Positions 6,545 through 16,329 are shown, counted from the first letter of the stretch. The stretch is DNA of 64,000 bases from Mesoterricola silvestris (GCF_030295405.1 NZ_AP027080.1:2728001-2792000), one strand, 5' to 3'. Made by a program: numbers and translations. The notes: generated from the sequence alone by a model not told the origin.

Positions 6545-8734
6545 ATGATTGACCAAAGCCCAAACTTGCCCGCGGCAGAGAGTTCTTCGGCTGTGGGCGC
6601 GCCTGCATCTGGAACTCCGATATATACCTGCCCTATGCACCCCGAGGTGCGGCAAGACCACCCAGGGGCGTGCCCCAAGTGCGGCATGGCGCTGGAATTG
6701 GAGATCCCCATAGCCAATACGGATCAAGCCGAGAGCCACGAACTTCGGGACATGACAAGGCGTATATGGGTAGGCGCAGCGCTGACCCTTCCCGTCTTTA
6801 TGCTTGCCATGGCCCACCTCGTGCCGGCGCTCGGTAGGCAAGCCTGGGTCACCGGCGACGGTTCGCGTTGGTTGCAATTCGCCCTCACCACACCCGTTGT
6901 TTTTTGGGCGGGATGGCCATTCTTCACCCGTGGCTGGAATTCCGTCCTGACACGCCAGTTGAACATGTTCACGCTGATCGCCATTGGCGTGGGTGCAGCC
7001 TTCAGCTTCAGCGCCGTGGCCATGCTGATGCCCCAAGCTTTCCCCCATAACATGCAGCACGGAGGCAGGGTCGCCATCTACTTTGAAGCGGCAGCGGTGA
7101 TTGTGGTTTTGGTACTCCTCGGCCAGGTGCTCGAGCTTCGCGCCCGCAGCCGCACGGGCAGTGCCATCAAAGCTCTACTGAACCTCGCCCCGCCCACCGC
7201 ACGTCAAATTGCACCAGGCGGCGATCATGAAGTCCCACTTGACCAGGTGAAGGTCGGTGACTGGTTGCGCGTGGTTCCCGGCGACAAGGTACCCGTGGAC
7301 GGCACGGTGGTCGAAGGTCATTCCAGCGTAGAAGAGTCCATGATCACGGGAGAGCCACTCCCGGTGGAAAAGGCCGAAGGCGACAAGGTGACGGGCGGTA
7401 CCATCAATGGCCCCGGCAGTTTCGTCATGCGGGCCGAGCGGGTGGGTACGGACACGATGCTTGGTCAAATCGTGAAGATGGTGGCCACTGCACAGCGCAG
7501 CCGCGCCCCCATCCAGGGCCTTGCTGATCGCTTTGCAGGGATCTTTGTGCCAGTAGTCCTTGCTATTTCGTTGCTCACCTTCTTTCTCTGGATTTGGTTG
7601 GGGCCGGATCCAAAACTCGCCCACGCTATCATCAACGCCGTGGCAGTCCTCATTATCGCCTGCCCCTGTGCGCTTGGCCTAGCCACCCCCATGTCCATCA
7701 TGGTGGGCGTCGGACGGGGAGCCCAGGAAGGAGTGCTCGTGAAGAACGCAGATGCACTTGAACGGTTGGAGAAAGTCACCACCCTGGTCGTGGACAAGAC
7801 GGGCACCCTCACGGAGGGCAAACCCATGCTCATGGAGGTTCTGCCGAGCGAAGGCTTTGGCCCAAAGGAATTCCTGCATCTCGCCGCCTCCCTGGAGCAG
7901 AACAGCGAACATCCGCTCGCCGCTGCGATCGTGCATGGCGCGAAGGATCAAGGCATCGGCCTGGAGGAGGTCAAAGGCTTTCGCTCTGTGACGGGTGGCG
8001 GTGTCATCGGCACTGTCGCAGGTCGATCCGTGATGATCGGCAAGCCGGACTTTCTGCGCAATGAAAAGATCACTGGGTTGGAACCGTTGGAGGAGTCGGC
8101 AGCGAAGCTCCAGGAAGAAGGCAGGACCGCCATGTATGTCGCCATTGATGGCAAACCCGCAGGTGTTCTTGCTGTGACGGACCCGATCAAGGCCACCACC
8201 GCCGAGGCCATCAAAGACCTTCAGAGCCTCGGAGTCAAGGTGGTCATGGTCACAGGCGACAACCTCCGTACGGCTGCTGCGGTGGCCAAGATACTGGGCC
8301 TGGACGCAGTGGAAGCGGACATCGAACCCGCTGGCAAAGTTGCTCATGTGAAGAAGCTGCGCGCCGAGGGCAAGCATGTCGCCATGGCTGGTGATGGCAT
8401 CAACGACGCTCCTGCGCTCAGCGAAGCCGAGGTTGGCATTGCCATGGGTACAGGCACTGATGTGGCCATGCAAAGCGCCGGAATCACGCTCGTGAAGGGA
8501 GATCTGCGGGGCATCGCCAAGGCCATCCGCCTCAGTCGCGCCACCATGGGCAATATCCGCCAGAATCTGTTCTTCGCCTATATTTACAATGGGCTGGGAA
8601 TTCCGCTGGCTGCCGGGGTGCTCTATCCGTTCTTCGGGTTGTTGCTCAGCCCGATGATTGCCGGTGCCGCCATGAGCCTAAGTTCCATCTCTGTCATCGG
8701 CAATGCGCTTCGGTTGAGAAACACGAGGCTATGA
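6545..8734 (+). CDS. copA: Copper-transporting P1B-type ATPase
   Basis: A 729-residue P1B ATPase. The N-terminus carries a heavy-metal-binding domain of the YTCPMHP...CPKCGM type (residues about 22-46) in place of the usual HMA domain. Eight membrane helices are expected; the ion-site motif CPC is at about residue 372 ([13 protein letters not shown]), TGEP of the actuator domain near 265, the phosphorylation motif DKTGT near 415, and GDGINDAP near 616. CPC marks the Cu(I)/Ag(I) exporter subgroup. AAGGTAAGGG lies upstream of the ATG. Its stop overlaps the start of the UbiB-like gene, so the two are translationally coupled. Confidence 0.95.
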
Positions 8735-9111
8735 TGACGAGTCCAGGGAAAATAAGCCTTCTTCGAACCTCTCCCAGGCTCCTGCAAATTCTGTGTGTGC
8801 TCACACGGCACGGATTCCTGGGTGTGCTTCGCGGCAAGGATCACTGGCCCTCACCCAAAGACGTGCGGGAAGCCATCGAGGAACTGGGGCTGACTTTCAT
8901 AAAATTCGGCCAGGTTCTCGCCCTGCGGCGTGATCTTCTGCCTGGTGCCTACATTGAGGAATTGGAGCGGTTACACGACCAGTTGCCGCCGATGGATTTT
9001 CCAACGGTGCGCGCACTGGTGGAAGACGAACTGGGGGCGAAGCTGACGGTAAAATTCTCAGCCTTCAGTGACGGGGTAGTCCCAACAAACGTGCAACCAG
9101 GGATCGAGTAG
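8731..9111 (+). pseudogene. ABC1/UbiB-family kinase gene, 5' part, cut by transposon
   Basis: The first 114 codons of an ABC1/AarF/UbiB atypical kinase: LTFIKFGQVLALRRDLLP is the family's KxGQ motif, followed by LERLHDQLPPM. The native frame runs to 9,072; the last residues are encoded by the transposon end and a stop there. Joining it at one copy of GTGAC to the part beginning at 15,058 restores one frame of 537 codons (FSDRPLAAATIAQVHDA across the join). The gene starts inside the copA stop (ATGATGA). UbiB proteins support ubiquinone or related lipid metabolism; here the protein is inactivated, because the KxGQ part is separated from the catalytic lobe. Confidence 0.93.
9068..9072. repeat. 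Target-site duplication GTGAC, left copy
   Basis: GTGAC directly before the left terminal repeat; the same five bases follow the right terminal repeat at 15,053-15,057. Five-base duplication is typical of Tn3-family transposition. Confidence 0.95.
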
Positions 9112-9113
9112 CG
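9073..9113 (+). repeat. Left terminal inverted repeat of the transposon
   Basis: 41 bp beginning GGGGTAGTCCCAACAAACGT and ending AGTAGCG; it differs at three positions from the reverse complement of 15,012-15,052. It is the binding site for the Tn3-type transposase. Confidence 0.95.
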
Positions 9114-9120
9114 AACGAGG

Positions 9121-12045
9121 TCAGGCCTCCAGTTCCAACCGGGCTTCCAGATCCAGCTCGAACCGCCCGTAGGGGTTGATGTGCTGGGTCAGGAGGGGGC
9201 TCAAAGCCCCGAGATCCCTGGGGGTTAGGCGCTCGGACCAACCATCATCCGCGAGCACGCGCTGGATCATCAGCGTATTGATGTAGACGAGGCTGGATTG
9301 GAGCAGATGAAGGCTGAGCAGGCCCATCTCCTGGTCCTCCCTCCGGTTCGTCGAGAGTTCGCCGCCCCGTCCGTAGAAGATGAAACCGTTGGCCGCATTC
9401 CAGCTCTCCACCACGTTCAGGCCCTCGTTCACTTCCCGCCGCAGATCCTCGGAGGCCAAGTAGCGGCAGAGGAAGATCGTCTTGATGGCCTTGCCCAGCT
9501 CCGCCAAGGCCTTGTAGGCGGGATGGGGCGCGTTGGCCCGCGTGAAGCGACGGAGTAGGCTTTCCGCGTCGGCCATGCCGCGTTTCATAGCCACGGCGTG
9601 CTTCACCATGGCGTCGAGCTGCTGCTCAATTAGCTCCCAGTTGATGCTTCGTGAGGCCATCACCAGGTCGAGGTTCGGGTAACCCTGGCCCGCCTCAGGG
9701 CGGTAGAGCCGCTGACTATGGATGGCCTTGATGCGCGGCATCAGCTCGAACCCGAGCAGGCGGCAGAAGGCGAAGGCCACTTCGCTCTGCCCGTGGCTAT
9801 CCACAAACTGGCGTTCCACCTCCATCTCCGTGCAGTGGCGCAGGACGCCCTCGATCATGGCGGAGGCCTCGGAGGATGAGACGCGCTTGAACTGGGAGTA
9901 GATGCAGACGGACTTCTTCTCGACGTGCCAGTAGACCATCACGCCGCGCCCGCCGTAGCGATGGTGCCATTCGGTGAGCAGGTTCTGGTCCCAGGCGCCG
10001 AACTGCTTGGAATCCGAGGCGCACGCCGTCGTCCCTTCGCCCCAGATGTGCGGCAACCGCGCGGCCAGCGTGGCGTTCACGACCTGGGCGATGGCCTGCC
10101 GCAAGCCCTCGATGGAGAGGTAGCGGCGGCGCACGTACAAGAGACCCTTGTAATCGTCCTCCGGTTCGGCGGCCATGCTTTTCAGGCCCGTGTTGGTGCC
10201 CAGCCCGTAGAGGCAGAGCAGGAGGCGGCGCCGGAGGGTTGAGGGATCCATGCGCTCCCGAGGCGTGGGGCTCCGGAAGGACTGCGTGAATCCCGTCCGG
10301 AAATCGGCTTCCTTGAGCACGTCCAGGAGGCTGGTGGACGGCCACCGCTGCCCCACCTCCCGCTTCAGTCCGCCCAGGTTCTCGGGATCCGGAAGTGCCT
10401 CGAAGGGGGTGACGGAGATCCAGCCGTCCTTCTTGGGCAGGATCCTCACCTTGGGGTTGGCGGGCATCCCTTCGTCCAGGGCCTTCAGAGCCCCAGCCAA
10501 CTCCGAACGGATCGTGTCCGTGAAGGCCTTCGCGTCGAGGGGAATGCCCAGCTCCGCGTAGTAGTCGGGCCGCTTCGTCTCGAAGTCCTGGGGCAGGTCC
10601 TCCTCCGGATCCCGGTATCGGCGGCTCCCCTCCACCCAGATTTCGCGGCAGCGGAGGCGCTCCCGGAGCGCCCGCAGCACGCAGACCTCGTAGGCGATCC
10701 GGTTGATCTTTGGGGGATCGCCCTCCGCCTCCACGACGTGGGGCATCCAGGCCGGGCGCACCACGCCATCCAGGGGCACCTCCACGCCCTCGGGATAGGC
10801 CGCTCCCTTGGTCTTCAGGTGAGTCTTCAGCAAGGTCAGGGCCTCCATCACGGGCTGGTGACGCGGGTTCGTGCAACGGAAGGTAAGGGCCTCCAGCAGC
10901 TCGGGGAGCATTCTCCGGTAGTGGGCGCCGTAGGACCGCTTGAGGACCAGGCGCACCGTGCCCTGGTAGGCCGGGCCGGAGGTGCGGATTTCCTGAAGGA
11001 TCGACCGTAGAAGTTTCTCGGGAGCCACGGGGTAGATGACCTCCTTCACGGCTCCCTCTGGGGAATCCAGGGAGGCCTCCGCCATGCGGACCAGCACCCC
11101 GACCTTTCCGGGCACCTTCTGAAGCTGGCCCGCCAGCTCCTCCTCCACCTTCTTCTGCGCCCGCTTGGTCATCTTCTGGATGGTCTCGATGAGCAGATCC
11201 ACCAGGTGGTCGGTCAGCTCCTCGCCCCGGCGATGGAGGTAAGCGGCCAGCAGCGTGGCCCGCAGGGGGCCGCCGTGGCGGCGCAGCTCGTGCGGTTCTT
11301 CCACGGCGGCACGCATCGCGTACCGCTCGATGAGCTTGGGCGGCAGATCCTTGAAGAGACCCAGTGGGAGACCCACCGCCTTCACCTCGCGCAGGCGGGA
11401 GGCGGTCGCCTTCACACTCTCCACGCCCGCTTTCCCCGGATCGGCCTTGAGGGCCTGCCAAGGTGTCCACTCGGGTTCATCCTCGGAGGGTTGGGTCTTC
11501 AGGAGGCCGTCCAGGCGGTCCAGGGCCTTCCGGCCCAGTTTCCCGAAGCTGCCCTGGGTGAATGCTGTCTCGTGCCCCTGGAGGGCGGAATTCAGGATGC
11601 GCTGGCCGTGCTCCTCCGCTGGAGGTTCGATCCGGAGCCCCCGGCACCACTGGTTCATGGCTTCTGTCAAACGGTCAGGGCGATGTTCCTGGGGGATGAC
11701 CTCCTGAACGAGCCAGCCCTTCAGGGCCTCATGATCCGCGAGGGTGAACTCACGGAACCCACACCATTCGCGGATTTCGGCCCGGTGACGCTTAATCGTG
11801 GCTCCCTCCCATGGGTAGTGACCGAAGGCCGCCGGATCTACCTCAACCTGGCCAGCCACAAAACCCACGACCATCGGCGGGATTTCCTCGGCATCGCTCG
11901 GGAAGCGGCCCTCCAACTGAAAGAACTTCAGGAGAAGGGCGAATCCAAGGCGGGTGGCCCCTGTCTTGTTCTTCAGAAGCGTCCGCTCGGGCGGCCACAG
12001 GAACCACATCTCCGCCAGGTCGTCTTCAGACCACGCCCGTTTCAT
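9121..12045 (-). CDS. tnpA: Tn3-family transposase
   Basis: A 974-residue transposase, the usual Tn3 length (about 970-1,000). The N-terminus ([16 protein letters not shown]...) matches the DUF4158-type DNA-binding region; the C-terminal third contains the DDE core: [25 protein letters not shown], and a late Glu in [12 protein letters not shown]. It cuts and joins the element ends during replicative transposition. The ATG at 12,045 has GGGAGG six bases upstream; the 123-residue upstream extension of the frame lies over the divergent regulatory region and is rejected. It ends eight bases from the left terminal repeat. Confidence 0.96.
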
Positions 12046-12147
12046 CCCAGCCTCCCGAAATGCACCAATTGAAGTAGAGTCATATTGGCATGCTTCATCC
12101 CCCACGCCAGTCCTACGTTTCCGGGGGTCAAAATCCGAGGAGTTCAA
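12046..12147. promoter_or_regulatory. Divergent promoter/res region between tnpA and tnpR
   Basis: This 102-bp gap separates divergent transposase and resolvase genes, where Tn3-type elements carry res and both promoters. An inverted pair CAATTGAA (about 12,065) / TTCAATTG (12,143-12,150) brackets it. The exact res subsites cannot be delimited by eye. Confidence 0.6.
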
Positions 12148-12753
12148 TTGATACACAAGGTGGCCATCTACTGCCGGGTTTCCACGGCGGACCAGTCCTG
12201 CGAACGGCAGGAGCGGGACCTCCTCGCCTACGCGGAGCGGGCGGGCTTCGAGGTGGCTGGCATCTGGAAGGAGATCGCCTCCGGCAGCAAGGACCAGCGG
12301 CCCGAGCGCCGGAAGGTTCTCGCTCTGGCTCAAGACCGGCGCGTCGATGCCATTCTCGTTACCGAACTCACTCGCTGGGGACGCAGCACCATGGACCTGG
12401 TGCAGACCCTCCATGACCTCCAGGCCTGGAACGTCTCCCTCATCGCCCAGACCGGCCTCCAGTTCGACCTGAGCACGCCCCAGGGCAAGCTAATAGCCTC
12501 CCTCATGGCGGCGCTGGCGGAATTCGAGCGGGACCTGCTGCGGGAGCGCATCCGCTCCGGCATCGCAGCCGCCAAGGCCAAGGGGCGCACCTTCGGACGC
12601 AAGGCCGGGGAGCGGCCTAAGGCCGATCGCCTCGCCCCAAAGGTGCTCCACCTTCTGGAGGAGGGCCGCTCCTACCGCTTCATCGCCCGCGAGCTGGGCC
12701 TCAGCCCCACCACCGTCATGGGGATCGCCCATCGGCATCGGGACACTATCTGA
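12148..12753 (+). CDS. tnpR: Serine resolvase of the transposon
   Basis: A 201-residue serine recombinase: the catalytic Ser is in [11 protein letters not shown] (about residue 11), followed by the usual resolvase core ([38 protein letters not shown]) and a C-terminal helix-turn-helix ([25 protein letters not shown]). It resolves cointegrates at res. I chose the TTG at 12,148 because CGAGGAG lies five bases upstream and the length then fits the family; the longer frame from 12,085 begins in the regulatory region. Confidence 0.93.
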
Positions 12754-13462
12754 GCCTGGCACCTACTGGGCTCGGGACGCTTGCGGCCTCCCGCTTTACC
12801 TCTTTTCCCTCGAAACCAAGTTCCTTCTTCCATCGCGCCAGCGTGGCGTCCACCGCCGAGCCCGAATGGAACACGATGCGCGTTTCCCGCTTGTCGAAGT
12901 CCATCTGGACCGAGGCCACGCCGGGCGTCGCCGCCATGGTCTGGGGGAGAGTGCCCACGCATGGCGGGCAATCAAACTGGGGCGTAGAGAGCACGAGGAG
13001 CGTGCCCCCGGCGGGTGCGGGCGGCGCGGTGGCGGTCAAGGTGGTGCTTCGGCCCGAATGGAGGAGCCGGGGAGCAGCGGCGGCCCCCAGGAAGGAGAGG
13101 CCCAGGATGATTATCGGCAGCGTCGGGAAGCGCGGCGCCTCCGTGCAGCAGTTGTCCTTTCCAGAGCGACCGCCGTAGCGTTTCAGCGCCCACCAAGCGA
13201 TCACACCAGCCAAGAGAAGGGCCAGGGCCCCCAAGGCCCAAGGGCGGATCCAGGCGATCTTGGCGCCGAGGGTGCCCGTGGCCATACCCAGGCCCGCCAG
13301 GGTCAAGGGCAGCCAGCAGCAGGCGGAGGCCGCGACCCCCAGCAGCACGGCGGAAAGCACCGTTCGGCGTCCAGTCTTGGGGCTCAGGTCCGGCGGATCC
13401 GTGGGGCATCTGCCGGTTTGGGGTCCCGGGGGCGGGCAGCAATCATGGTCTTGGGTGGACAT
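12746..13462 (-). CDS. MerT-MerP-like mercuric/metal transport fusion
   Basis: A 238-residue protein. After a Cys/Pro-rich lead (DHDCCPPPGPQTG) come MerT-like helices with the Cys pair in the first (GVAASACCWLPLTLAGLGM, about residues 37-60), a second helix (about 70-88), a loop with NCCTEAP, and a third helix. The C-terminus (about 165-230) is an HMA-like domain (TPQFDCPPCVGTLPQTM... GVASVQMDFDKRETRIVF) with CPPC in the metal-binding position, like MerP. It would bring Hg(II) or a related thiophilic metal across the inner membrane. Fusion of the two proteins is known in some mer operons. It is the last gene of the cassette and overlaps the resolvase end by eight bases, convergently. Confidence 0.85.
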   Translation of the reverse strand: MSTQDHDCCPPPGPQTGRCPTDPPDLSPKTGRRTVLSAVLLGVAASACCWLPLTLAGLGMATGTLGAKIAWIRPWALGALALLLAGVIAWWALKRYGGRSGKDNCCTEAPRFPTLPIIILGLSFLGAAAAPRLLHSGRSTTLTATAPPAPAGGTLLVLSTPQFDCPPCVGTLPQTMAATPGVASVQMDFDKRETRIVFHSGSAVDATLARWKKELGFEGKEVKREAASVPSPVGARLR

Positions 13463-13475
13463 GGGGCTCTCCTTC

Positions 13476-13619
13476 TCAGCAACCGCAGCCGGGACCGGCC
13501 AGGATCCGCAGCACCACCAATAGGGCCACCAGGCCCAGGACCCAGGCCAGCAGCTTGAGCTGGCTCTGGCGTTCCTGGCGCCGGGCCTCGCGGATGGGAT
13601 CGAACGCAGCCGTGGCCAT
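13476..13619 (-). CDS. 47-residue membrane protein ending GCGC
   Basis: Starts MATAAFDPIREARRQERQSQ, has one membrane helix (about residues 22-41, LLAWVLGLVALLVVLRIL) and ends AGPGCGC, placing two Cys just outside the membrane. It sits ten bases after the thioredoxin/CopZ fusion and 13 bases before the MerT-MerP fusion. The position and the terminal Cys pair suggest a helper that passes metal to or from the transporter. It is too small for most gene finders. Function is not known. Confidence 0.65.
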   Translation of the reverse strand: MATAAFDPIREARRQERQSQLKLLAWVLGLVALLVVLRILAGPGCGC

Positions 13620-13628
13620 GGCATTACC

Positions 13629-14459
13629 TCAGCAGCAGGCGGGTTTCGAGGGGGCGCAGCAGTCCTGCGTGGGTGAAGGAACGGCCGGGTTCGCGGACAG
13701 GGCCTTCACTTCCTTGGTGATGTCCCCGAGGCAGCAGCCACCGCCGGGGTTGGTCACCTCGCAGTGGCAGGTTCCAGCTTTCACCTCGGCCTTGATGGAT
13801 TCGAGGACGGTGCTCTTCCCTGTCACGATCCACTCGTCCCGGACGCTCTCCGCGCTGTGCCCGAAGCAGTAGCAGAGCGGACGCGGCCCGCTCCGCTCTT
13901 TCACCCCCACCCGCACCGTGAGGTCCACCCGGGCGAAGCTCTGGGCGCCATCCGCGCTGAAGTACACCAGGGCGCAATCGGGGCTGGCGCAGAACCGGTA
14001 CATCTCGTCCTTCACCTCGGACCGAAGATGAGGCTGGAGCAAGGCGCGGAGGGTGACGGGCTTCACCGGCTTCCCCTCTGTCCTGCAGGCTGGACACGCC
14101 GACGCCGTCCTGGGCTTGGCGAGGGGCGTGCAGCAGGCGTGGGCCTCGGCGTCCTGGGCCCTGCGCAGGGCCTGCCGCACCCAGGCCGGATCCGGGAGGC
14201 CCTGGCGGCGCCCTTGGACCACATAGGTCCGGCATCCGAGCGCTGGCTCGAAGCCCTCCGGAAGGGGCGCCACGTCCTCGCCGTTCACCCGCAGGGTGGG
14301 CGAACCCGGGAAATTCCACTGGCGGGCCGCCTCCGGCGTCTCCACCCGGATCTCTCGCACCTCCCCCGCGATGCCCAGGGAGGCCATGCCCGCCTGGAGC
14401 AGCACCCGGGCCTGTTCCAGGTTGGGGCAGCCTTCAAAGACCAGCAGCTCGATCCGCAT
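13629..14459 (-). CDS. Thioredoxin-like / CopZ-type Fe-S fusion protein
   Basis: A 276-residue protein in two parts. Residues 1-75 are a thioredoxin-like fold (MRIELLVFEGCPNLEQ, then FPGSPTLRVNGEDV with the cis-Pro region), with one Cys at the active-site position instead of CxxC. Residues about 105-245 match the archaeal-type CopZ N-terminal domain: a Zn site (CPACRTEGKPV) and a [2Fe-2S]-type site (LCYCFGHS, then CHCEVTNPGGGCCLGD). The tail is again Cys-rich (DCCAPSKPACC). Such proteins bind and reduce soft metal ions in the cytoplasm. It follows merR by three bases. The fusion of the two domains is the notable point; the metal is inferred as Hg from the neighbours. Confidence 0.8.
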   Translation of the reverse strand: MRIELLVFEGCPNLEQARVLLQAGMASLGIAGEVREIRVETPEAARQWNFPGSPTLRVNGEDVAPLPEGFEPALGCRTYVVQGRRQGLPDPAWVRQALRRAQDAEAHACCTPLAKPRTASACPACRTEGKPVKPVTLRALLQPHLRSEVKDEMYRFCASPDCALVYFSADGAQSFARVDLTVRVGVKERSGPRPLCYCFGHSAESVRDEWIVTGKSTVLESIKAEVKAGTCHCEVTNPGGGCCLGDITKEVKALSANPAVPSPTQDCCAPSKPACC

Positions 14460-14462
14460 GGT

Positions 14463-14915
14463 TCACCTCCTTCGCAAGGGGCGCGCGCCCTTAGGATCCG
14501 GGACTGCGCAATCGGGGACGCATAGCTTAAGGAAAGCCGGGCAGAGCGGCCCCGGCTCTCCCTCGCAGGCCTGTCGCAGGCTGTGGAGGACATCCTTCAT
14601 TCCCTGAAGTTCCACCAGCCGCTCCGTAAGGGCGTGGAGCTTCCGGTCCAGCAGGGCCTTCATTTCATCGCAGGCGTGCTCGTCCCGAATGTCCGTGCGG
14701 AGGAGAATCTTGATCTCCTCCAGGATGAAACCGCTGCGCTGGGCTTGCTTGATGAAGCGCACCGTCTCCACCGAGGAGGCGTCGTACAGCCGGTAGCCCT
14801 TGGCGGTCCGGCCCACAGGCTCCAGGAGGCCCAGGCGCTCGTAAAGGCGGACCGCCTGGTCGCTCACCCCGCAGGCCTCGGTGAGGTCGCGCATCTTGAA
14901 GGCCCCAGGTGCCAT
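14463..14915 (-). CDS. merR: MerR-family metal regulator
   Basis: A 150-residue MerR protein: N-terminal winged helix (MRDLTEACGVSDQAVRLYERLGLLEP, then GYRLYDASSVETVRFIKQAQRSGF), a dimerisation helix, and Cys at residues 82, 117 and 125, almost exactly where MerR of Tn501 has its three Hg(II) ligands (82, 117, 126), plus two more Cys near the end. This supports Hg or a similar metal as inducer. The ATG at 14,915 has GGAGG five bases upstream. It is the first gene of the cassette operon and lies just downstream of a palindromic operator, so it probably regulates itself. Confidence 0.9.
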   Translation of the reverse strand: MAPGAFKMRDLTEACGVSDQAVRLYERLGLLEPVGRTAKGYRLYDASSVETVRFIKQAQRSGFILEEIKILLRTDIRDEHACDEMKALLDRKLHALTERLVELQGMKDVLHSLRQACEGEPGPLCPAFLKLCVPDCAVPDPKGARPLRRR

Positions 14916-14941
14916 GACCACCTCCCAGGTAGCAGGTTAAG

Positions 14942-14961
14942 GTCTATACCCGGGTATAAAC
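14942..14961 (-). promoter_or_regulatory. MerR-type operator/promoter of the metal cassette
   Basis: On the minus strand GTTTATACCCGGGTATAGAC is a 20-bp palindrome with one mismatched pair. It is preceded at once by TTGAG, a fair -35, and followed by CCTTAAC, a weak -10, giving an over-long spacer of about 19 bases. That geometry, an operator between widely spaced promoter boxes, is what MerR-family activators use. It starts 27 bp upstream of merR. Confidence 0.7.
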
Positions 14962-15011
14962 TCAAGGGGCCAAAGAAACTTTCTTTGGAGGTCCCCTCAG
15001 AAGCCACGGAG

Positions 15012-15052
15012 CGCTACTTGATCCCTGGTTGCACGTTTGTTGGGGTTACCCC
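15012..15052 (-). repeat. Right terminal inverted repeat of the transposon
   Basis: Reverse complement begins GGGGTAACCCCAACAAACGT; three mismatches to the left repeat over 41 bp. Confidence 0.95.
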
Positions 15053-15057
15053 GTGAC
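15053..15057. repeat. Target-site duplication GTGAC, right copy
   Basis: Matches 9,068-9,072 exactly. Confidence 0.95.
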
Positions 15058-16329
15058 AGACCGCTTGCCGCGGCCACCATTGCCCAGGTGCATGATGCAA
15101 TTTTGAAGGACGGTCGTCACGTGGCCGTCAAGGTGCAGCGCCCAGACCTGCACAGAATCATCGGCAAGGATTTTGCGGCGTTGTCCTACCTTGTCGCCCT
15201 CGGGGAAGGGCTCTTTCCCCGGTTGCGCGCCTTTGACTTGCCCGTGATCGTGCGGGAGTTCGCCAACAGTCTGGAACGGGAAACCGACTTCAGACATGAG
15301 GCCCATTCCATGGTGCTTATTCGCGCTGCCCTGGCAGATGTTCCCGACTTCTGGATTCCTGACGTTATTGCGGAAGCCTCGACTGGCAAGGTGCTAACGA
15401 TGGAATACTCGGCAGGCGAACGGGTGGACCTCTACGGAAAGAACCATCCCGAAGCGATGCCCAAGGCCATCAACACGTTGGTCAAGCTGATGCTGCACTC
15501 GATCTTTGAAGAAGGGTTGTTCCACGCCGATTCACATCCCGGGAACGTCTTCGTCCTGCCAGATGGGCGGCTCTCCCTGCTCGATTTTGGCATGACCGGC
15601 GAACTCGACGAGGCGATGCGCGAATCTTTAACTCGCCTCCTCGAAGCCGTCGTCAACGGCGATGCGCGGGCCACCACCGAGGCCTATCTCGAGATGGCCC
15701 CGGCCAACGAACAGGTCAATCGTGCAGCGCTGGTGGTGGATGTCAAGGCCGTGCTCTATGAAATTCACCGACACAGCTTGGCGGATGCCTCCATCGGCAA
15801 TGCGTTCGAGGCGCTCCTCCGTGCCGGCAGCGAGAATGGGGTTCACAACCCCGGAGAATTTTTCCTGCTCACCCGGGCGTTTATCATTCTGGAATCGATG
15901 ATCCGCCAGCTCTCGCCAGGCCATGACTACATGAAGTCCTTCCAGGAGGAGATCGCCCGCCGGAAAGCACAGCATTTCTCGCTGGGACGAATCCAGGACA
16001 AGACGACCAGGTTGGCGAGGGAGATGGAGCGATTATTCAGTGATGCGCCCAGTGATACGCGCCGCATCCTTCGACGTTTTGCCGAAGGCAATCTTGGCCG
16101 CGTGCAGTCACCCGGCATGGAGGCCCTCGGTGATCGTGTCAGCAATAACCTGGAGCGGCTGGCCAGTTCCGTTGCCTTTGGCTCACTGGTAGTTGGTGGA
16201 TCCCTCTTGTTGTTCGCACAGATGGGTGGCTGGCATCACCGGCTTGGCGAAGCCATGGTGATCAGTGGAATCTTGGGCATGGTCATCCGGAGCCTGGGAG
16301 CCTGGCTTCGAAACCGTCGTCGACCTTGA
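15053..16329 (+). pseudogene. ABC1/UbiB-family kinase gene, 3' part
   Basis: The remaining 423 codons of the kinase interrupted by the transposon. Visible motifs are AAATIAQVHDA (family A-rich loop), VAVKVQRPDL (ATP-site Lys), FHADSHPGNVFVLPDG (catalytic loop) and LLDFGMTGEL (metal-binding DFG), then two C-terminal membrane helices (about 50 residues from the end). An ATG-like start used by the open frame lies inside the transposon end, so a truncated protein lacking the KxGQ part could be made but is unlikely to work. The native gene would encode 537 residues. Confidence 0.92.

Follow-up and report, generated by a model that had tools for sequence, protein, structure and literature searches.

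A 64,000-nucleotide stretch of the Mesoterricola silvestris genome (GCF_030295405.1, NZ_AP027080.1:2728001-2792000; hereafter the window) carries, as the cargo of a complete Tn3-family transposon, a four-gene metal operon that is, on balance, best read as a MerR-controlled uptake-and-capture cassette for a thiophilic metal, most likely Hg(II), with a cytosolic Fe-S/DF acceptor. The genes follow one another in the order merR, DF-CopZ fusion, a 47-codon gene, and merTP, all on the minus strand and separated by gaps of only 3, 9, and 13 bp, exactly as given in a preliminary description of the locus. A GA-rich, ribosome-binding-like stretch precedes each of them, and one promoter serves all four. 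The same description had pointed to import parts without the mercuric reductase MerA, and this combination proved to be recurrent.

No MerA scoring over the cut-off (454 bits) was found in the whole M. silvestris genome or in five close cassette carriers (G109, G115, G158, G053, and G142), and no merA was seen beside the cassette in close relatives. The best flavoprotein disulfide reductase of M. silvestris reached 318 bits against MerA; in the control search, all 14 control genomes gave matches and one exceeded the cut-off. Among 25 further cassette genomes, 23 were without MerA over the cut-off, an absence that is weaker in those cassette genomes, several in number, that are incomplete drafts. 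The remaining two (G597 and G579) carry MerA on the same strand as the adjoining cassette, at the planctomycete loci L139 and L141, and an acidobacterial cluster (L060) reads merR-merT-merP-copZ with merA downstream. Such company of MerA argues for Hg(II) as the metal. The suggestion that the combination is a distinct metal-handling system was thus borne out as regards the recurrent arrangement and failed as regards independence from mer, since MerA adjoins the cassette at L139 and L141 and stands with CopZ at L060. Several flavoproteins near other cassettes were tried as MerA candidates: those near L062 and L070 were rejected on protein scores below the cut-off, and for those near L058 (G142), L134 (G505), L147 (G415), and L005 (G357) all genome matches fell below it. 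MerB was not detected in the genome search, which was silent in the controls as well, and HgcA, the mercury methylation protein, was tested for and not found. Taken at the level of the genomes compared, the cassette without merA is evidently a recurrent design rather than a simple recent loss, and MerA is apparently an optional partner that is usually absent.

A wider survey used the 495-aa four-domain chain as query; its loci were chosen by similarity to the cassette, and its counts are not unbiased frequencies. Starting from the planctomycete locus L005, 27 of 246 genomes sampled in one phylum gave matches; starting from the myxobacterial locus L007, 14 of 237 in another phylum did. CopZ and MerTP shared a strand within 1.5 kb at 57 loci; of these, 31 fuse CopZ, MerT, and MerP in the same frame, and at 44 a MerR lay within 3 kb. 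A complete Tn3-family element was also found on a plasmid of Methylomonas sp. DH-1 (NZ_CP014361.1, ~85253-91106; L165 1754-7607), with 39-bp repeats (95%), the duplication ATTTT, TnpA, TnpR, and the gene set merR-merT-merP-copZ without merA. The best profile for its MerR was mercury MerR (140 bits, cut-off 150.85), its CopZ scored 142 bits, and its repeats are unrelated to those of the window transposon. The presence of the merR-merT-merP-copZ set in two unrelated transposons makes simple loss unlikely as a general explanation. Both elements are thus Tn3 carriers of merR, merT, merP, and copZ without merA, whereas in Methylomonas the genes are separate and both DF and the 47-codon gene are missing. 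Two annotations deserve mention here: the Methylomonas copZ is listed as hypothetical, and a gene on the planctomycete plasmid pK2D_1 deposited as merA, 'Mercuric reductase' (CP036351.1, QDV81057.1; L042 6049-7284), encodes CopZ-MerT-MerP with no reductase domain.

The four-gene order is repeated at L001, a locus of another family in the same phylum, with amino acid identities of 94.7, 87, 91, and 89%, and a single open reading frame encodes DF-CopZ-MerT-MerP in four acidobacterial copies (L002, L055 in G115, L056 in G158, and L071). The four-domain frames, of 479-495 codons, lie directly behind merR in G115, G158, G333, and the second copy of G109, and the DF part is missing from the G053 and G142 cassettes. 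In an alignment, the Cys-rich N-terminus of the window MerTP, DHDCCPPPGPQTGRCPTDPPDLSPKTGRR, matches the linker in the fused chain, AHDCCPPQGPQTGACPTNPLDLSPKAGRR, which indicates that split and fused genes are equivalent. Comparison across two families of the phylum gave dN/dS values of about 0.08-0.14 for merR, DF-CopZ, and merTP, a sign of purifying selection on these copies. The acidobacterial draft G109, also of another family, holds three copies (L001, L002, and L054), of which the first is split, the second fused, and the third without a detected DF; an ArsR and a P1B ATPase adjoin the first two.

The DF-CopZ fusion (13629-14459) comprises a DF part (residues 1-97, with C11 and C76), a CopZ N-terminal Zn/[2Fe-2S] domain (residues 108-247), and the Cys-rich tail DCCAPSKPACC. 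It had been described as a Trx-CopZ fusion, of which the CopZ half holds: this part exceeds the cut-offs of NF047645 (124.8 vs 100 bits) and PF18423 (66.8 vs 28.4 bits), aligns over 124 residues with the N-domain of Archaeoglobus CopZ (PDB 2hu9, E=6e-18), and retains every metal-ligand Cys of that solved domain. The Fe-S cysteines C196, C198, C233, C242, and C243 are conserved in 59 of 59 sequences, and a [2Fe-2S] cluster is inferred from the family. The thioredoxin half does not hold, as this part belongs to the DF family of NCBIfam (NF049942, 87 bits, cut-off 70), which is apparently thioredoxin-like yet carries C11-P-N-L in place of CxxC. The missing CxxC excludes a classical dithiol thioredoxin role, and action as a classical thioredoxin reductase is unlikely. 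C11 is kept in 16 of 16 sequences and C76 in 14 of 16. From an AlphaFold2 model of the fusion (5-sequence alignment, pLDDT 43.5), the order of DF elements, b-a-b-a-b-b-a, was the sole part used. At L160 (1086-1985) and L161 (6505-7732), in the phylum reached from L007, the arrangement is MerR-DF-MerTP without CopZ, and DF can presumably take the place of CopZ there as importer partner. Selenoprotein versions of both DF and CopZ have been listed previously (PMC13188914). A DF-family gene that follows merR-merTP-copZ at L068 (G219:C144, 1635-1940) carries TGA in frame at precisely the Cys76 codon; genome G219 encodes SelB over the cut-off, and selenocysteine is likely at this position, which suggests a reactive residue.

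The merTP gene (12746-13462) combines a MerT-type three-helix importer with a MerP/HMA domain. Its cysteines form a pair in the first membrane helix (48/49), a cytosolic pair (105/106), and the MerP motif C165-x-x-C168; C48/C49 are conserved in 42 of 42 and the CxxC in 37 of 38 aligned loci, compared with 33 of 41 for C105 and 19 of 41 for C106. The earlier identification as a MerT-MerP fusion is upheld by these Cys pairs and by relatives, whereas curated family cut-offs were missed (PF02411 MerT, 21.2 vs 32.9 bits; NF033556 MerTP_fusion, 29 vs 180), and the MerP domain gave an HMA score of 16.9 bits, below the cut-off, and a match to the MerP structure 1afi at E=0.003. MerTP is therefore to be regarded, from its Cys pairs and relatives, as a divergent member. 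The genome search with the Pfam MerT profile was silent everywhere, controls included, so its silence was not taken to mean that MerT is absent. Three helices are predicted, with the N-terminus inside and the MerP domain outside, a topology that would place the CopZ domain of the fusions in the cytosol beside the MerT Cys pairs. At L148 (G365:C36, 2107-2673), a MerP domain adjoining merR and copZ has a stop codon in frame at each of the two CxxC cysteines; the one checked, the first, is TGA, and the motif looks like U-x-x-U. The 47-codon gene (13476-13619), an open reading frame with one predicted membrane helix and the tail GPGCGC, gave no family match in curated profile searches, and one other copy, at L001, exists among the loci examined; the two differ by 10 nt and 3 amino acids, which fits coding as weak evidence.

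MerR (14463-14915, ATG start) is a MerR-family activator whose Cys82, Cys117, and Cys125, numbered from the ATG, were previously said to fall near the Hg(II) ligand positions; they do form a three-Cys set of the Hg(II) type and are conserved in 42, 41, and 41 of 42 related MerRs, respectively. CueR lacks the first triad Cys (Ser in E. coli CueR), and the presence of Cys82 in all 42 proteins speaks against a CueR-type regulator. The nearest solved structure is the Bacillus mercury regulator (4ua1). Family profiles leave the metal class unclear, as the scores of ZntR (99 bits), MerR (TIGR02051, 92 bits, cut-off 150.85), and CueR (89 bits) are close and all below their cut-offs. A MerR-type operator/promoter, TTGAGT-20 bp-TAACCT with the dyad TTTATACC CG GGTATAGA, occupies positions 14934-14965 on the minus strand. 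It is conserved upstream of related merR genes, the pattern TTGA-n20-TA with a GTACC..GGTAC-like dyad lying near many of them, not all, and we take its half-sites to resemble those of mer operators.

The transposon that surrounds the operon, overlooked in the preliminary description, spans 9073-15052 and is present in single copy. Its Tn3-family character is seen in a DDE transposase over the cut-off, terminal inverted repeats of the ~38-bp class starting with GGGG, and a 5-bp duplication. The left (9073-9113, plus strand) and right (15012-15052, minus strand) terminal inverted repeats, 41 bp each, are identical at 38 of 41 positions and are flanked by target-site duplications, GTGAC, at 9068-9072 and 15053-15057. 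The transposase gene tnpA (9121-12045, minus strand; NF033527 894 bits, cut-off 500; PF01526 460 bits) lies in a frame open as far as 12414, with Met 124 as its likely start by comparison with L001; the serine resolvase gene tnpR (12085-12753, plus strand; PF00239 137 bits) may truly start slightly downstream. The element splits a UbiB/ABC1-kinase gene (8731-16329, plus strand), whose flanks, when joined with a single GTGAC, restore an open frame and hence the empty site. A search of the 4.99-Mb single-contig genome found the terminal repeat solely as this one pair, which points to one recent insertion. At L001 the TnpA (69%) and resolvase (37%) next to the cassette are different ones, and a terminal repeat of the same type lies upstream; in G158 a lone terminal repeat (3 mismatches) lies immediately upstream of merR. 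A plasmid search with TnpA returned Tn3 relatives at 65-70%, with no mer cargo at the two best matches. The P-type ATPase (CopA) gene upstream (6545-8734) lies outside the transposon, on the host side, and CopA was rejected as a dedicated partner of the cassette.

In the proposed mechanism, MerR would repress at the operator until metal bound by Cys82, Cys117, and Cys125 switches it to activation, and the MerP domain would bind periplasmic metal, which MerT would relay inward through its Cys pairs, as expected from the respective families. The cytosolic CopZ Zn/[2Fe-2S] and DF domains would then receive the metal, a presumed transfer that is accompanied in many relatives by actual fusion to the importer, and MerA would act as an add-on module. 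As the best guess for the fate of the metal, DF-CopZ may shield cell proteins and pass the metal to a host P1B-type exporter or to the thiol pool; reduction on the chaperone would be the main alternative. The earlier idea that the fusion takes over detoxification or feeds an exporter such as CopA gains from the tie between CopZ and importer and from the P1B ATPases often nearby in close relatives, and loses in that the window CopA is outside the mobile unit. P1B ATPases lie within 6 kb at L001, L002, L056, and L057 and ~8 kb away at L055; by score, those of L001 and L056 are closer to the Cd/Zn type than to the Cu type, and that of L057 fits the Cu type. Hand-off to an adjacent exporter is plausible in the close group and does not appear to be a fixed feature.

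Uptake and capture of Hg(II) has to be weighed against several other explanations and against some observations that weigh on the other side: the spacing of the MerR cysteines (35/8) equals the CueR loop length, the three MerR profile scores lie near one another, the planctomycete sample has a P1B ATPase within 6 kb at L144 only, so that hand-off is not hard-wired, and, in published tests of Tn5563a (PMC4447125), a Tn3-family element that carries merR-merT-merP without merA and was described as derived from Tn5044 by deletion, 2 strains gained Hg tolerance and 6 had their minimal inhibitory concentration (MIC) reduced at least 2-fold. The CueR-like loop, together with the homology of CopZ and with the Cd/Zn-type P1B ATPase and Czc-type RND systems that G158 and G115 have nearby, would fit a cassette for uptake and chaperoning of Cu, Cd, Zn, or Pb tied to neighbouring efflux; this is rather unlikely in view of the invariant first triad Cys, of the MerA genes that flank the cassette at two planctomycete loci, and of operator half-sites (GTACC..GGTAC) that probably resemble those of mer operators. 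It is about equally doubtful that the CopZ [2Fe-2S] cluster and reactive DF cysteines replace MerA by reducing Hg(II) to Hg(0) with cellular electron donors, for which the BFD-like character of the CopZ domain (PF04324, weak) with its invariant Fe-S cysteines, the TGA at DF Cys76 in the SelB-encoding L068 genome, and the many cassette genomes without MerA can be cited; DF has no CxxC, the cassette encodes no NAD(P)H-binding partner, and MerA, where present (L060, L139, and L141), joins CopZ instead of replacing it.

A decayed mer operon that lost merA and persists as a useless or harmful remnant is quite improbable. Such an origin has a published parallel in Tn5563a, with its Tn5044 ancestry and lowered Hg MIC, but the low dN/dS, the repeated gene fusions, and the recurrence of the form without merA in Acidobacteriota, Planctomycetota, and the Methylomonas transposon all count against it. 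Still less probable is a MerA encoded at another genomic site and acting in trans: flavoprotein disulfide reductases do exist, yet none reaches the cut-off in M. silvestris, and matches below it are common in the controls. Beyond uptake and capture as such, the cassette may tentatively, with rather less confidence, represent a MerA-independent Hg route, in which a [2Fe-2S]/DF acceptor, coupled to the importer covalently or through the operon, either reduces Hg(II) or passes it on safely; two or more unrelated Tn3 transposons would have spread this route, which would be present in several phyla.

With the classical mer operon (merR-merT-merP-merA, as in Tn21, Tn501, and Bacillus RC607), the cassette shares the MerR Cys triad, the MerT Cys pairs, the MerP CxxC, and carriage by Tn3-family elements; it differs in having no merA, in beginning with merR, in the addition of CopZ Fe-S and DF domains, and in a fused and divergent MerT-MerP. 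Tn5563a likewise is a merA-less Tn3-family carrier of mer genes, whereas it has neither CopZ nor DF. The N-terminal domain of Archaeoglobus fulgidus CopZ, a Zn/[2Fe-2S] copper chaperone, is homologous with all aligned cysteines kept here, but the cassette CopZ has no soluble HMA tail, its HMA partner being MerP across the membrane, with MerT between. NCBIfam already catalogues the parts (NF047645 CopZ_Nterm_CC, NF049942 DF_fam_seleno, NF033556 MerTP_fusion, and NF045683 MerT/CopZ fusion-like selenoprotein); in the literature searched, with subscription papers mostly outside its scope, no description was found of a CopZ-coupled merA-less module or of the DF-CopZ-MerT-MerP chain.

Such cassettes affect counts in surveys of mer genes, one planctomycete CopZ-MerTP gene having already entered the databases as 'merA'. 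Published work has viewed Hg import in the absence of MerA as harmful or as a sign of decay. A conserved, mobile, and repeatedly fused module of import and Fe-S chaperone suggests that cells can do without mercuric reductase in coping with Hg(II), or a different thiophilic metal, once it has been imported.

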